Shown here: in pieces, positions 4,687 to 22,861 of the stretch
Numbering within the stretch: position 1 is the stretch's first letter
Layout: each line of letters opens with the position of its first letter
Virus record (IMG/VR): IMGVR_UViG_3300017714_001672
Coordinates: 1 to 29,342 of that record
Source: a virus
Strand: one strand, 5' to 3'
Length of the DNA stretch: 29,342 bases
Position numbers and translations under genes: made by a program
The notes under the pieces: generated by a model
What the model was told of the DNA's origin: nothing
The model's input: the letters and a program-made list of their open reading frames with translations, nothing else
The model's database searches: none

Positions 4687-4833
4687 ATGGTACAAGAGTT
4701 AGAAAAACCAATTACTTTAAAGATACATACAAAGTGCCCTAGGAAGTGGATGATAACAGATTTAGAAACAGGTGAGAAGTATAAAGCCACAGGTAAAACA
4801 GAATTATATAAGATGTGGAAAAAGTATGAGTAA
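4687..4833 (+). CDS. Small hypothetical protein, 48 residues
   Basis: This short reading frame lies between the deformylase and the first C5-methyltransferase and overlaps the latter by 8 bases. I use the ATG at 4687; an in-frame ATG at 4645 would overlap the deformylase. The product begins MVQELEKPITLKIH and ends in a Lys/Tyr-rich tail. It contains a segment (ITDLETGEKYKATGKTELY) that reads like a small beta-hairpin followed by a helix. I do not recognise it. Tight packing between two real genes on the same strand supports expression. Confidence 0.55.
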   Translation: MVQELEKPITLKIHTKCPRKWMITDLETGEKYKATGKTELYKMWKKYE

Positions 4834-5965
4834 TTATAAACCTTACAAATTAAAAGACGTAATAGATAATTCAAATAAAGAATTATTTACTGTCATATCT
4901 ACTTTTGCTGGTGGTGGTGGTTCTTCTACTGGTTATAGACTAGCTGGTGGTAAGATATTATGTGTAAATGAATTTGTTGAAGCAGCAGTAGAAACATATA
5001 AATCAAATTATCCAAACACACCTGTTTTACCAGATGATATAAAACAATTAAAAGGTGAAGACTTTTTAAAGATTGCTGGTATCAAAAAAGGCGAGTTAGA
5101 TATATTAGATGGTAGTCCACCTTGTTCAGCGTTTAGTACAGCAGGTAAAAGAGAAAAAGGTTGGGACCAAACAAAGACTTATTCAGATGGTAAACAAGTT
5201 GAAAATATAGAAGATTTATTTTTTGAGTTTACTAGAATTGCAGGTGATATAATGCCTAAAGTAGTTATTGGTGAAAACGTGGCTGGTATTACTATGGGTG
5301 AAGCAACAGAATATAGAAATAAAATTATTAATGAATTTGATAAACTAGGGTATGAAACTGTTTATAAAGTATTAAGTGCAGCAGATTTTGAAACACCACA
5401 AGATAGAAAGAGATGTTTTTTTGTTGCTGTTAGAAATGATATAATGGAAAATGCAGGTATAAACTTTATGACTTTAGAGAGTGAAATATATCCTGAGCCT
5501 GTAACACCTGAACGTATATCAATTAAGTCAGCGATAGATGATTGTAAAAATGACCCTGAACAAGAAAAAGAATTATTTGAATATGTACAAAAGGGCTTTC
5601 AAAAAAAGTGGATAGAACTATTAGAGTTTAATCCTAAAAGACATAGAAAACCAAGTGATATTGATTTCATAGATATAAACCCTAAAAGATCAATGTTTAA
5701 TATGATAAGACCTTGTCCTGATTTACCAAGTCCTACATTAACACAAAGGGGACAACAGATGAGTGTATCAGGTGTATTTCATTATGCCAAGAATAGAAAA
5801 CTTACAATACCAGAATTAAAAAGACTTATGGGTTTACCTGAAGATTTTAGATTAGAAGGTAAATTTGATAAACAAGCTGAAAGAATCGGTCGTATGGTTG
5901 CCCCTCTAATGATGAAGAATCTGGCGGCAAATATATACGAAAAAGTGTTAAAAAGAACAAAATAA
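4826..5965 (+). CDS. C5-cytosine DNA methyltransferase 1, with Arg in motif X
   Basis: A Dcm/M.HhaI-type enzyme of 379 residues. Motif I is FAGGGG at 27-32; motif IV is GSPPC with catalytic C100; motif VI is E150-N-V; motif VIII is Q192-D-R194-K-R196. Motif IX is NRKLTIPELKRLMGLPEDF (about 323-341). Motif X is R-I-G355-R356-M-V-A-P, where the usual G-N-x-V has become G-R-M-V. The target-recognition part (about 215-320) differs from that of the paralogue at 20714, so a different target site is likely. The start at 4826 overlaps the small upstream gene by 8 bases; an in-frame ATG at 4772 would overlap it heavily. A plain methyltransferase is the default reading. The motif X change raises the possibility that the enzyme transfers a carboxymethyl group from carboxy-SAM (see findings). 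Confidence 0.92.
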   Translation: MSNYKPYKLKDVIDNSNKELFTVISTFAGGGGSSTGYRLAGGKILCVNEFVEAAVETYKSNYPNTPVLPDDIKQLKGEDFLKIAGIKKGELDILDGSPPCSAFSTAGKREKGWDQTKTYSDGKQVENIEDLFFEFTRIAGDIMPKVVIGENVAGITMGEATEYRNKIINEFDKLGYETVYKVLSAADFETPQDRKRCFFVAVRNDIMENAGINFMTLESEIYPEPVTPERISIKSAIDDCKNDPEQEKELFEYVQKGFQKKWIELLEFNPKRHRKPSDIDFIDINPKRSMFNMIRPCPDLPSPTLTQRGQQMSVSGVFHYAKNRKLTIPELKRLMGLPEDFRLEGKFDKQAERIGRMVAPLMMKNLAANIYEKVLKRTK

Positions 5966-14292: not shown

Positions 14293-15786
14293 ATGCAAGT
14301 ACCAAAGTTTAGAGAATTTATCACAGAAACAGATGTAGGTCGTAAAGACAAACCTATAACAGTTGCTATTGTAACGATAGCAGATTCAAAAGACCCTAAA
14401 GAAAATACAACTGCTGATCTTATATCAAAAGCGTGTAAGAAAAAAGGCATTAAGTGTGTTATAGTAAATACTAAATCAACAATCATCACACAAAAAGACG
14501 AAGACAAAAATACATTAACAGTATATAATTATGACGGCAAGAATGCTGAACATACATTTACTGGTAGAGATACTTGTTGTATAGTTAGAGGTGGCGCTTT
14601 GGAAGACGAAGCTGGTTTATCAATCATCTCCGCTTTTCAAAACTCACAAGCATTTATGATGAATACTAGGGCAGCAATGTTGACCTGTGATAACAAACTT
14701 ACAACTGCATTACTATTTGAAAAGTATGGAATACCCACACCTAGAACAGCATACGTTTCTAACGAAAATAATATTAAAACAGCATTAGATATGATTGGTG
14801 CAAAATTTCCAATCATCTTAAAAACATTAACAGGAACTCAAGGTGTTGGTGTAATTAAAATAGAAAGTTACGAAGGTCTTGTGGCTACGTTACAAGCAAT
14901 GTGGAAATTAGAGGCAGAAGTATTAATACAAGAATATATGCCTAGTGATTTTGACGTAAGAACTTTCTGTGTTGATAATAAAATATTTGCTAGTACAAAA
15001 AGAAGTCATAGTAGCTATGATTTTAGATCAAACACACATAGAGGTGCTGAGGCAGAGCCATATATTTTAAGTAAAGAAGAAAAAGAATTAGTTTTAAAAA
15101 CTGCTAGAGCTTCAAAAGCATATATGGTAGGTGTTGACCATATTATACATAAAGACAAACCATACTTACTAGAAATTAATGGTAGTCCAGGTTCAGGTGC
15201 AGATTACGAGGGTTATCAACACAAAGATTATTACTCTGATTCAGAACCAGCTGGTAGAATAGATGGTGAAAAAATGATGTCAAATGTAATAGATTGGGTT
15301 AATGATAGAGCACATTGGGATAGACAATCACTTGTTGAGTGTGGTTGGTTAGAAACAATAGACCTAGATGAAATTGGTAAAGTAAGATGTAAGTTTGATA
15401 CTGGTAATGGTTCTAAAGCTTGTGCATTACACGCTGATGAAATTATATCAGATGGTAAAATTGTCAAATGGAAATATAATGGCAAGACTTTCACAAAACC
15501 TAGACACGGAAAAAGTGAAGTGTTCAGATCAAATGCTACTAACGAACCATCAGAAGTTAGACCTACAATCTTACTGGATATTACATTTAATGGTTTTACA
15601 TATAAAGACGTAGAAGTAGGTTTAGACCAAAGACCTAGGTCAGGTTCTGACTTACTAGTCAATAGAGATTTAATGAGATTAATGAATTTGAGTGTCAATC
15701 CTAATAGAACTTTCGTATTAAGTAGAAGATTGAGACCAATTGATAAAAAAGGAAAGCCAGATAAAGTAGGGTTTGATAAGAAGTAG
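14293..15786 (+). CDS. RimK-like ATP-grasp ligase fused to a RimB-like aspartic protease domain
   Basis: 497 residues, two domains. Residues 1-340 are an ATP-grasp ligase: a T-V-A-I-V-T start, K-L-T-T-A-L-L-F-E-K-Y-G-I-P-T-P, T-G-T-Q-G-V-G-V ATP loop, I-Q-E-Y-M segment and L-E-I-N-G-S-P-G metal-binding end, closest to RimK, which adds glutamates to the C-terminus of ribosomal protein S6. Residues about 350-490 resemble the RimB/ATP-dependent zinc protease (retropepsin-like) family: K-F-D369-T-G-N-G-S-K-A and a late R-S-G-S-D-L-L-V-N-R-D-L-M. In Pseudomonas, RimB works with RimK and cuts the glutamate tail. Here both activities may be in one chain. The start abuts the regA stop. Alternatives are ligation on another carboxylate substrate. 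Confidence 0.88.
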   Translation: MQVPKFREFITETDVGRKDKPITVAIVTIADSKDPKENTTADLISKACKKKGIKCVIVNTKSTIITQKDEDKNTLTVYNYDGKNAEHTFTGRDTCCIVRGGALEDEAGLSIISAFQNSQAFMMNTRAAMLTCDNKLTTALLFEKYGIPTPRTAYVSNENNIKTALDMIGAKFPIILKTLTGTQGVGVIKIESYEGLVATLQAMWKLEAEVLIQEYMPSDFDVRTFCVDNKIFASTKRSHSSYDFRSNTHRGAEAEPYILSKEEKELVLKTARASKAYMVGVDHIIHKDKPYLLEINGSPGSGADYEGYQHKDYYSDSEPAGRIDGEKMMSNVIDWVNDRAHWDRQSLVECGWLETIDLDEIGKVRCKFDTGNGSKACALHADEIISDGKIVKWKYNGKTFTKPRHGKSEVFRSNATNEPSEVRPTILLDITFNGFTYKDVEVGLDQRPRSGSDLLVNRDLMRLMNLSVNPNRTFVLSRRLRPIDKKGKPDKVGFDKK

Positions 15787-20635: not shown

Positions 20636-20727
20636 TACTGCACTTGACTCTATCTTTATTATATGTTATAATGATCTATGGTTTTGTCATATGGTTATTA
20701 ATGAAGTGGAATAATGAACAATTATAA
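20632..20727 (+). CDS. Tiny single-pass membrane protein, 31 residues
   Basis: It starts as ATGA on the MT-A70 stop and runs 14 bases into the second C5-methyltransferase. The product is almost wholly hydrophobic from residue 4 to 24 (L-H-L-T-L-S-L-L-Y-V...), then K-W-N-N-E-Q-L. One membrane helix is predicted by eye. The frame also contains the promoter at 20644-20672, so it may be a spacer that happens to be open; the start-stop overlap favours a real gene. Confidence 0.45.
   Translation: MILHLTLSLLYVIMIYGFVIWLLMKWNNEQL
20644..20672 (+). promoter_or_regulatory. Strong sigma70-type promoter for the second C5-methyltransferase and CmoA-like gene
   Basis: TTGACT at 20644-20649, 17-base spacer, TATAAT at 20667-20672. 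The expected start near 20679 gives about 35 bases of leader before the ATG at 20714. It gives the methyltransferase/CmoA-like pair its own transcript. Confidence 0.82.
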
Positions 20728-21877
20728 AAGATATACATTAGAAGATACTTTACAAAGTGAGAAAAAAGCACTATTCAATGTGCTATCAACTTTCGCTGGT
20801 GGAGGTGGTTCGTCAACAGGTTATAGACTGGCTGGTGGTAAGATACTAGCTGTTAATGAGTTTGTTGAAGAAGCACAAAACACATATAGGGAAAATTATC
20901 CCAATACATTAATTATACCTGGTGATATAAACAAGTTGACAGGAAAAGATTTTTTAGATAAGATAGGATTAAAACCAGGTGAACTAGATTTATTAGACGG
21001 TAGTCCACCTTGTTCAGCATTTAGTATGGCAGGTTCAGTATCACACGGTAAAGGTAATACACACGCTGATGCATTTGGTAAAACAAAACAATATAGTGAT
21101 ATTAAAGGTGTAAGTAACGTAGAAGATTTATTTTTTCAATTTTTAAGAGTGGCAGATGAAATAAAACCAAAAGTAATTATTGGTGAAAATGTTGAAGGTT
21201 TGACAATGGGAGAAGCAAAAGAATACTTCCATAAGATACAAAATACTTTTGAACAAATGGGTTATCTAGTTGTTGCTGATGTATTAAATGCTAGTTATTT
21301 TGGCGTACCACAATCTCGTAAAAGAACTTTTTTTATTGGTGTTAGAGAAGATGTTGCTGATAAGATTGGTTTAAATTTTATGACAATGTATCAATTGTAT
21401 CCTGAAGTAAACAAAGAACAAACTATTTTGAGCGAAGCAATAAGTGATATTGTAAATGAAGACAAAGAAGAATTAGATTATTTGTTTGAGAAGATAGGAC
21501 CTGATAGAGCTGTTGGTAAGACATTGGCTAAAATGCCTACAGATCCTGACAAAGTATTAACAGGTATGGATTACCACGAGAAAGGTCATCACTTTAATTT
21601 AAAAAGAAGTAGTTTAAGAAAACCTTGTCCAACAATAACAGCTATGGGTAATCTTGCTGGTGTCGCTGGTACTTGTCATCCAATAGAGAATAGAAAGTTT
21701 ACTATAAAAGAATTAAAAAGAATTATGAGTCTACCTGAAAACTTTAAATTAACAGGTCAACATAAACAGAAGTCAGAACGGATAGGTCGTATGGTGCCAC
21801 CGTTAATGATGAAAGCACTTTCGGAAAGTGTATATAACAAAGTATTGAAACCATATAAGGAGATATGTAATGACTAA
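20714..21877 (+). CDS. C5-cytosine DNA methyltransferase 2, with Arg in motif X
   Basis: 387 residues, clearly a paralogue of the enzyme at 4826: both share S-T-F-A-G-G-G-G-S-S-T-G-Y-R-L-A-G-G at the SAM loop and catalytic C100 in GSPPC. ENV is at 158-160 and Q200-S-R202-K-R204 is motif VIII. Motif X is R-I-G358-R359-M-V-P-P, again Arg for the usual Asn. There is an insertion of about nine residues after motif IV (S-H-G-K-G-N-T-H) compared with enzyme 1, and the target-recognition part diverges, pointing to another target site. It is driven by its own promoter and overlaps the CmoA-like gene by 8 bases, so the two are probably co-translated. Methylation with SAM is the default; carboxymethylation with carboxy-SAM is proposed in findings. 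Confidence 0.93.
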   Translation: MNNYKRYTLEDTLQSEKKALFNVLSTFAGGGGSSTGYRLAGGKILAVNEFVEEAQNTYRENYPNTLIIPGDINKLTGKDFLDKIGLKPGELDLLDGSPPCSAFSMAGSVSHGKGNTHADAFGKTKQYSDIKGVSNVEDLFFQFLRVADEIKPKVIIGENVEGLTMGEAKEYFHKIQNTFEQMGYLVVADVLNASYFGVPQSRKRTFFIGVREDVADKIGLNFMTMYQLYPEVNKEQTILSEAISDIVNEDKEELDYLFEKIGPDRAVGKTLAKMPTDPDKVLTGMDYHEKGHHFNLKRSSLRKPCPTITAMGNLAGVAGTCHPIENRKFTIKELKRIMSLPENFKLTGQHKQKSERIGRMVPPLMMKALSESVYNKVLKPYKEICND

Positions 21878-22547
21878 ATTTACTTTTGCCACAAGCAACG
21901 AAGGCTTTGATAATCACATAGATAAATCTGTACGTGGTTATAGTAACTTATGGAGTGATATACTTTCATTGTCAAAATACTTTGTAGAAGACAATACAAA
22001 TGTTGTTGATATAGGTTGTTCTACTGGTAAGTTATTAAAGGGTATGATAGAACAAAATCAAAAACACATACCAAAAGCAAAGTATATGGGTATAGAAATT
22101 GAAGAAGATTTTTATGGCGACTATGTTTTTGATGAACAAAAGTTTGATAATTTAAGATACCATAAAGGTGATGTTAGAAGTTTTGAATTTAATAATTGTA
22201 GTTTAGTTACTTCAATATTTACTTTACAATTTATGCCACCAAAAGATAGAGAAGAAGTTATTAATAGAGTATATAATGGTCTTAATGTTGGTGGTGCTTT
22301 TATCTTTTCAGAAAAAACTTTTAGTTGTAATCCTAGAATACAAGATATGATGACCTTTACATATTACGATTACAAAAGAAATAATTTTACTGATGCAGAG
22401 ATATTAGACAAAGAAGTACAGCTAAGGCATATGATGAAACCAAATACAAAGACAGAGTTGTATGATATGTTTACTAATGCTGGTTTTGAAGTACACAATT
22501 TCTGGCAGAACTTTAATTTTATAGGGGCGATTGCTTTAAAGAAATAA
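21870..22547 (+). CDS. CmoA-like SAM-dependent enzyme (candidate carboxy-SAM synthase)
   Basis: 225 residues that follow CmoA from end to end: S20-V-R-G-Y24-S-N (CmoA S-V-P-G-Y-S-N), V-V-D47-I-G-C-S-T-G at the SAM loop, F-T-L-Q-F-M (CmoA F-T-L-Q-F-L), N-G-L-N-V-G-G-A-F-I-F-S-E-K, Y-D-Y-K-R and N-A-G-F-E with a final W-x-x-x-x-F-N-F-x-x-x-x-A-L-K. CmoA makes carboxy-SAM from SAM and prephenate; cells use it with CmoB to modify tRNA U34. As I recall E. coli CmoA, Arg199 holds the carboxylate; the residue aligned here is Glu182, with Arg186 one helical turn on. The product chemistry therefore needs testing, and a plain methyltransferase cannot be excluded. No CmoB is visible. The AAGGAG at 21858-21863 and the overlap with the DNA methyltransferase gene set the start. 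Confidence 0.8.
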   Translation: MTKFTFATSNEGFDNHIDKSVRGYSNLWSDILSLSKYFVEDNTNVVDIGCSTGKLLKGMIEQNQKHIPKAKYMGIEIEEDFYGDYVFDEQKFDNLRYHKGDVRSFEFNNCSLVTSIFTLQFMPPKDREEVINRVYNGLNVGGAFIFSEKTFSCNPRIQDMMTFTYYDYKRNNFTDAEILDKEVQLRHMMKPNTKTELYDMFTNAGFEVHNFWQNFNFIGAIALKK

Positions 22548-22555
22548 ATATCTTT

Positions 22556-22861
22556 ATGGCAATTACAAAAAAATCTTATGAAGATTTAAGACAGTATTGG
22601 GACTATCAAAGAAAAGTAGAATACAATAAAGAGATGGTACACTTTATGGCTGATAGATTTGAGGGTAGAGTGTATAATGATTTTGGTATGGTACATATAG
22701 ATGAGATGAAAAATGTTTTATGGACAAAAGTTGATCCTAAAGATTATGAAGAACCTAGAAAAGGTTATGTACCAGCAAATCCAAAGTTAAGATTTGAATG
22801 GGAAGGTGGGGCATATTTACCTCAACCAGCAATACCTCATTATGATGATGAAAAGCATTGA
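22556..22861 (+). CDS. Hypothetical protein, 101 residues
   Basis: A charged, aromatic-rich soluble protein (opening MAITKKSYEDLRQYWDYQRK, later a P-R-K-G-Y-V-P-A-N-P segment and a W-E-G-G-A-Y-L-P-Q-P tail). No membrane segment or catalytic motif seen. No clear Shine-Dalgarno precedes the ATG. It lies between the CmoA-like gene and uvsX, and its stop codon overlaps the -35 box of the uvsX promoter. I do not recognise the family. Confidence 0.7.
   Translation: MAITKKSYEDLRQYWDYQRKVEYNKEMVHFMADRFEGRVYNDFGMVHIDEMKNVLWTKVDPKDYEEPRKGYVPANPKLRFEWEGGAYLPQPAIPHYDDEKH

Follow-up and report, generated by a model that had tools for sequence, protein, structure and literature searches.

The window analysed here is a stretch of viral DNA 29,342 nucleotides long (IMG/VR record IMGVR_UViG_3300017714_001672) and represents a genome fragment of a phage. 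It encodes CmoA, a predicted carboxy-S-adenosylmethionine (Cx-SAM) synthase, and two C5-cytosine methyltransferases (C5-MTases), CmoX1 and CmoX2, both with Arg in place of the usual Asn of motif X. Most probably this phage carboxymethylates cytosines of its own DNA, with one CmoA feeding both Arg-type enzymes, and we set the probability of this reading at about 0.82. Gene content, residue conservation, co-occurrence, gene order and clades were observed directly and the chemistry was established by others for Synechococcus phage S-B43; from these we infer that the enzymes of the window phage are active, and likewise their targets, the host and the final product.

The basic CmoA-CmoX system is already known. 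According to Yang et al. (Nat Commun, 7 Dec 2025; PMC12783734), 5-carboxymethylcytosine (5cxmC) of S-B43 is made by CmoA and CmoX, and CmoY then adds glycine. Cx-SAM synthesis by S-B43 CmoA was shown by assay; CmoX, a C5-MTase with Arg at motif X, forms 5cxmC at GC motifs, accepting Cx-SAM and refusing S-adenosylmethionine (SAM) as a cofactor. In its crystal structure (8YF3) R350 touches the carboxymethyl group, the named Cx-SAM contacts are F25, E47, F48, D69 and R350, and C98 is the nucleophile. S-B43 DNA contains 5-glycylcarboxymethylcytosine (5gcxmC) and no 5cxmC, and the phage candidates tallied in that work amount to 5,615 for CmoX and 4,257 for CmoA (PMC12783734). The original prediction, made from the letters of the window, had assumed that such a system had not been described in nature, and S-B43 contradicts this. 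Its central idea of carboxymethylation supplied by CmoA is still the best reading and, given the S-B43 precedent and the co-occurrence data, very probably right, although it took notice of one CmoX only and overlooked the second Arg-type C5-MTase at 4826–5965.

The window therefore represents a variant of the CmoA-CmoX kind, with CmoX of two types and without any CmoY match. What is new is the second, type-2 CmoX, one CmoA apparently serving both enzymes, and the fact that CmoY was not found. The main text of PMC12783734 makes no mention of paralogs, two CmoX, ATP-grasp, S-CRM01, Pelagibacter or RimK. A second paper on a comparable phage system was not among the titles listed in a search that left preprints and most subscription journals outside.

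In the proposed scheme CmoA would convert SAM and prephenate to Cx-SAM, and the motif X Arg of CmoX1 and CmoX2 would grip the carboxylate of this cofactor. The catalytic Cys would form the usual adduct at C6 of cytosine and the carboxymethyl group would pass to C5, giving 5cxmC. GC sites would be modified by CmoX1 and another target by CmoX2, both supplied by the single CmoA; without CmoY the mark may remain a bare carboxylate, blocking host restriction. If so, a pathway characterised in one phage is extended to a probably Pelagibacter-type lineage, and the predicted type-2 CmoX subfamily would widen the set of sites able to receive a carboxyl handle.

Two Arg-type methyltransferases and a CmoA homologue

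CmoX1, a predicted DNA cytosine carboxymethyltransferase of type 1, occupies positions 20714–21877 of the plus strand (387 aa), and its open reading frame (ORF) overlaps that of CmoA by 8 bases. This arrangement, foreseen in the original prediction, was borne out by the ORFs and by PF00145, which matches residues 21–373 at 4e-54; TIGR00675 was also matched. The catalytic Cys is C100 within SPPC (codon 21011–21013), and motif X reads ERIGRMVPP, so that the Arg predicted for the motif X Asn is indeed there (R359, codon 21788–21790). Residues 7–379 align with 8YF3 at 1.7e-137, and identity to S-B43 CmoX is 56%. In the alignment F27, E49, F50, D71, C100 and R359 correspond to S-B43 F25, E47, F48, D69, C98 and R350, so the named Cx-SAM contacts are kept. 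The recognition domain is likewise of type 1, shared with the GC-specific S-B43 enzyme, and the target of CmoX1 probably also comprises GC sites. An ordinary 5-methylcytosine enzyme would have Asn at motif X, and both CmoX1 and CmoX2 have Arg. A basic residue in place of this Asn is found as well in the engineered M.MpeI N374K, which accepts Cx-SAM and is the sole M.MpeI substitution named in the passages of PMC12783734 that cite this work; it carries Lys instead of Arg, and its target is CG rather than the GC that is probable for CmoX1.

Upstream of CmoX1 a promoter-like site is located at 20644–20672 of the plus strand (TTGACT-17-TATAAT, with TG before the second hexamer). Its agreement with the consensus in 11 of 12 positions is real, but the “strong promoter” once ascribed to the pair comes down to this consensus match, because the number of such sites in the region equals the shuffle level (27 observed versus 28.6).

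CmoA is encoded at 21870–22547 of the plus strand (225 aa). It covers positions 15–239 of the 239 in TIGR00740 (1.1e-33), in agreement with the claim that the product follows CmoA from end to end, and its best PDB chains are the CmoA structures 4iwn, 4gek and 1im8. Identity to S-B43 CmoA is 53%. E. coli CmoA (PDB 4gek) is homologous throughout its length with 33% identity, but the partner of the window protein is a DNA methyltransferase. Residues Tyr39, Asp62, Gly64 and Ser66 (E. coli numbering) are well conserved, with 200 or more of 209 distinct CmoA homologues keeping them. Unlike in S-B43, where the order is CmoA-CmoY-CmoX, CmoX1 of the window precedes CmoA. In the Synechococcus phage isolate S-CRM01 CmoA and an Arg-type CmoX are also adjacent; here CmoA comes first, clamp loader gp62 and RegA flank the pair, and the complete record contains a single C5-MTase and no CmoY. 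In the related locus L279 the order polymerase-MTA70-orf101-UvsX is kept and CmoX1 and CmoA are missing together; the pair thus behaves as a two-gene cassette.

CmoX2, a predicted carboxymethyltransferase of type 2, is situated 16 kb upstream of CmoX1-CmoA (4826–5965, plus strand; 379 aa from ATG 4826, with the frame open from GTG 4772). It matches PF00145 at 2.5e-52, contains SPPC (C100, codon 5123–5125) and motif X ERIGRMVAP (R356, codon 5891–5893), and shares with CmoX1 the pocket residues F27, E49, F50, D71 and C100. Its identity to both CmoX1 and S-B43 CmoX is 51%. The best structural match of its AlphaFold2 model (predicted local distance difference test, pLDDT, 86) is 8yf3, with a template modelling (TM) score of 0.82 by query length and E of 2e-40, followed by the structure of HhaI at 2.9e-20.

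In a tree of 53 methyltransferases, reduced from 175 at 90% identity, CmoX2 falls into a 16-member type-2 clade (support 100/98), while CmoX1 and the enzymes of S-B43 and S-CRM01 belong to a separate 31-member type-1 clade (97/97). Within clades mean identity is 59% for the N-terminal core and 65% for the recognition domain; between the two types the core still reaches 64%, but the recognition domain falls to 30%. Given this different recognition domain, the target of CmoX2 probably differs from that of CmoX1. Among 50,697 phage records the best match of CmoX2 was an enzyme of the S-B43 group with 52% identity, and type 2 is therefore without a near isolate in that collection.

Two CmoX genes are not peculiar to the window. 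A PF00145 search in 31 records picked by length or layout revealed two separate C5-MTases in seven of them (G001, G005, G006, G015, G026 in part, G033 and G034); G001 (40.9 kb) is a near-identical twin of the window, and the other six are further two-CmoX records. The C5-MTases of G008 and G018 are single genes, each matched in two pieces. In G026 the contig ends inside the second gene, CmoX1. Wherever both motifs X are readable, Arg is present in both genes. The window, G001 and G015 have CmoX2 before a VWA/CobT-like gene in slot one, and MTA70-CmoX1-CmoA in slot two, with DNA polymerase on one side and UvsX on the other. G005 and G006 carry CmoX2-CmoY-CmoA at slot one and a lone type-1 CmoX at slot two. 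Tandems, each with CmoA after it, were found in L118 (G033), with a type-2 and a type-1 gene, and in L032 (G034), with two type-2 genes. In all records spanning the distance from the type-2 gene to the second slot (window, G001, G015, G026) CmoX1 is present there.

Arg at motif X and the presence of CmoA

Scans with CmoA, CmoX and CmoX2 were taken at the best 80 of 194, 80 of 512 and 79 of 84 loci, respectively. Among the methyltransferase ORFs of loci L005–L232, where some contigs were fetched twice, 212 have Arg at motif X, a single one, L222, carries Leu, and another 12 are truncated before the motif; in 10 ORFs it reads ERCGRMV or ERNGRMV. CmoA was not found in the locus for 47 of the 212 Arg-type ORFs, of which 41 are type-2 genes. 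Of the others, L111, L115, L148 and L201 stop at the contig or locus end, L139 has a cut CmoA, and L152 is taken up below. Viewed from the other side, the 155 CmoA loci reduce to 95 nonredundant ones, 92 of which have CmoX, and 40 CmoY, within 4 kb.

Co-occurrence was further evaluated in sets fetched with patterns that exclude motif X; many of their loci are related, so that the counts are not independent events. In scan A5 (best 80 of 569) Arg was accompanied by CmoA in 53 of 57 cases, Asn in none of 20 and Met in none of 3. In the four Arg-type loci without CmoA (L448, L450, L456, L460) the contig breaks off on one side less than 1.8 kb away. Relatives of the C5-MTase of Methylophilales phage Melnitz (best 80 of 178) have Leu in 80 of 80 and CmoA in the locus in 0 of 80. 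The Melnitz enzyme itself also has Leu and no CmoA; it is 41–44% identical to CmoX1 and CmoX2 and belongs to a T4-like phage. In bacterial genomes (43 loci) CmoA is found with 23 of 23 Arg-type and 0 of 19 Asn-type genes (L520 among the latter); in the one other locus, L533, CmoA is present and motif X absent. Among isolates, S-B43, S-CRM01, PaBG, Mcat8 and TurkishDelight combine Arg with CmoA, and Melnitz, CL131, phi18:3, FPSV-S2 and tooticki have neither (5 versus 5, Fisher p 0.008, with the Staphylococcus phages SPbeta-like and SscF1 left out). The co-occurrence that the original prediction proposed as a check was thus found: Arg-type relatives sit with CmoA, and Asn-, Met- and Leu-type relatives do not. 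Within the methyltransferase subfamily that contains CmoX, the residue at motif X may provide a simple genomic code for the use of Cx-SAM.

The large Leu-type group, represented by L004 (4010–5227) and its 80 relatives L332–L411 (best 80 of 178), comes from marine phages without CmoA, and its Leu is neither the usual Asn nor Arg. The 23 bacterial loci with Arg-type CmoX and CmoA (L492–L507, L509–L511, L513, L516, L523, L526) include contigs of Endozoicomonas, Nonomuraea, Streptomyces and others, with several copies in metagenome-assembled genomes (MAGs) of Verrucomicrobia.

Evaluation of the proposed pathway

Several observations weigh against the pathway as proposed. CmoA is missing from the fetched flanks of 41 type-2 genes; a layout like that of the window would place it about 16 kb away. 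L152, whose 5.4-kb contig has an Arg-type CmoX but lacks CmoA, is an exception. In the Staphylococcus phages SPbeta-like and SscF1 CmoA is found beside a distant C5-MTase that has no motif X Arg. CmoA of the window scores 116.9 bits in TIGR00740, below the curated cut-off of 193.3. This cut-off misses phage CmoA, because the assayed enzyme of S-B43 also fails it (115.6 bits), as does that of S-CRM01 (118.6). Finally, Arg199 of E. coli CmoA, described as binding the carboxymethyl group through a salt bridge (PMC3663124), is replaced by Glu182 in the window, and Arg186 stands four residues later, where E. coli has Glu203. The same Glu/Arg swap is present in S-B43 CmoA, and since that enzyme was active in the assay, the carboxylate-binding Arg may have shifted by one helical turn. 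Among the 209 homologues Glu199/Arg203 occurs in 126 and Arg/Glu in 15.

The distant C5-MTases of SPbeta-like (L324, 5959–7658) and SscF1 (L325, 5950–8468) form a subfamily with FGSPCQ and a Gly aligned at motif X, and in SscF1 a CmoY-like gene lies between CmoA and the methyltransferase. If these enzymes use Cx-SAM, the carboxylate must be bound in some other way.

The strongest competing explanation leaves the CmoA-CmoX core unchanged and differs in the end product alone. The carboxymethyl group may serve only as a handle and be converted to an amide as in S-B43, either by CmoY encoded in another part of the genome or by a ligase not homologous to it; we consider this quite possible, at somewhat less than even odds. 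The original prediction took 5cxmC for the final mark and left such further modification by CmoY out of consideration. The absence of 5cxmC from S-B43 DNA (PMC12783734), the frequency of CmoY near CmoA (40 of the 95 loci mentioned above) and the CmoX2-CmoY-CmoA order around the CmoX2 relatives of G005 and G006 all agree with a handle, and the window is a fragment, so that a CmoY gene could lie beyond it. No match to CmoY was found among the ORFs of this fragment, however, and none to CmoY or Asn_synthase in G001 (also a fragment), in G015 or in the complete isolate S-CRM01, while the RimK-like ligase of the window is retained in relatives without CmoX.

Given the lack of a CmoY match in the window, in G001 and in S-CRM01, some phages may carry bare 5cxmC. 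For the window phage this is a prediction, as it is known from a fragment alone. The complete scheme, in which a GC-type CmoX1 and a type-2 CmoX with two specificities share one CmoA and modification ends with negatively charged, bare 5cxmC, in place of the glycine amide known from S-B43, is thus a tentative proposal, and we judge it rather unlikely to hold in every part. The complete isolate S-CRM01, without CmoY, offers a direct test bed for bare 5cxmC as a final base.

CmoX2 might also be a redundant or decaying copy, left after a CmoX2-CmoY-CmoA set had lost CmoY and CmoA, and act on the target of CmoX1 or on none. Comparison of slot one, where G005 and G006 hold the entire set and the window has CmoX2 only, fits such a loss, as do the 41 type-2 genes without CmoA in the flanks. 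But the frame of CmoX2 is open, its pocket residues are kept, and close relatives with an intact motif X are frequent. The recognition domain, 65% identical within type 2 and 30% to type 1, and the six further two-CmoX records also weigh against such a copy, which we regard as improbable. It is highly improbable that the functions are unrelated, the methyltransferases making plain 5-methylcytosine in keeping with their place in PF00145 and CmoA serving host tRNA modification like the E. coli enzyme of the 5-carboxymethoxyuridine (cmo5U) pathway (PMC12783734, introduction), because both enzymes have Arg for the motif X Asn and this Arg tracks CmoA in the samples, S-B43 CmoX takes Cx-SAM and not SAM (PMC12783734), and the genes of CmoX1 and CmoA overlap, with both of them lacking from L279. 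Carboxymethylation of phage DNA by CmoX1 and CmoX2 therefore remains the preferred reading.

The phage and the neighbouring genes

The DNA polymerases of the window and of Pelagibacter phage Mosig share 69% identity; the gene order of Mosig is much alike, and no match to C5-MTase, CmoA or CmoY was found there. The window probably comes from a T4-like marine phage with a SAR11 (Pelagibacter)-type host. Avoidance of the GC dinucleotide was uninformative as a trace of modification (0.93 in the window, 0.94 and 0.92 in two Mosig stretches). A tryptophan halogenase-like gene (235–1335; PF04820, 4.6e-66) lies at the start of the window.

Three neighbours were tried as partners of the module and rejected. 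The RimK-like ATP-grasp protein (14293–15786, 497 aa), encoded among replication genes, was considered as a substitute for CmoY; Mosig, L242 and L279 keep this gene without CmoX and CmoA, and a RimK-like gene also occurs near the Leu-type methyltransferase of Melnitz. The C-terminal part of the window protein presumably resembles RimB. The gene orf101 (22556–22861, 101 residues) follows CmoA in the window, and 45 of its 47 matches stand directly after CmoA, some being the same contig fetched twice. Nevertheless, L242 and L279 have orf101 without CmoA, and the converse, CmoA with no orf101, is seen at 12 loci of the CmoX1 clade; the orf101 model (pLDDT 87) gave no PDB match at E 0.001. The MT-A70 adenine methyltransferase is present in Mosig and L279 without CmoX.

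Two large ORFs combine a CmoY-like ligase domain with a CmoX-like domain: one of 713 aa in a SAR116 single-cell contig (L526, 4945–7083) and one of 649 aa, in which motif X is absent, in an alphaproteobacterial MAG (L533, 5068–7014). CmoA is encoded upstream of both, and these fusions are a natural link of the two functions.

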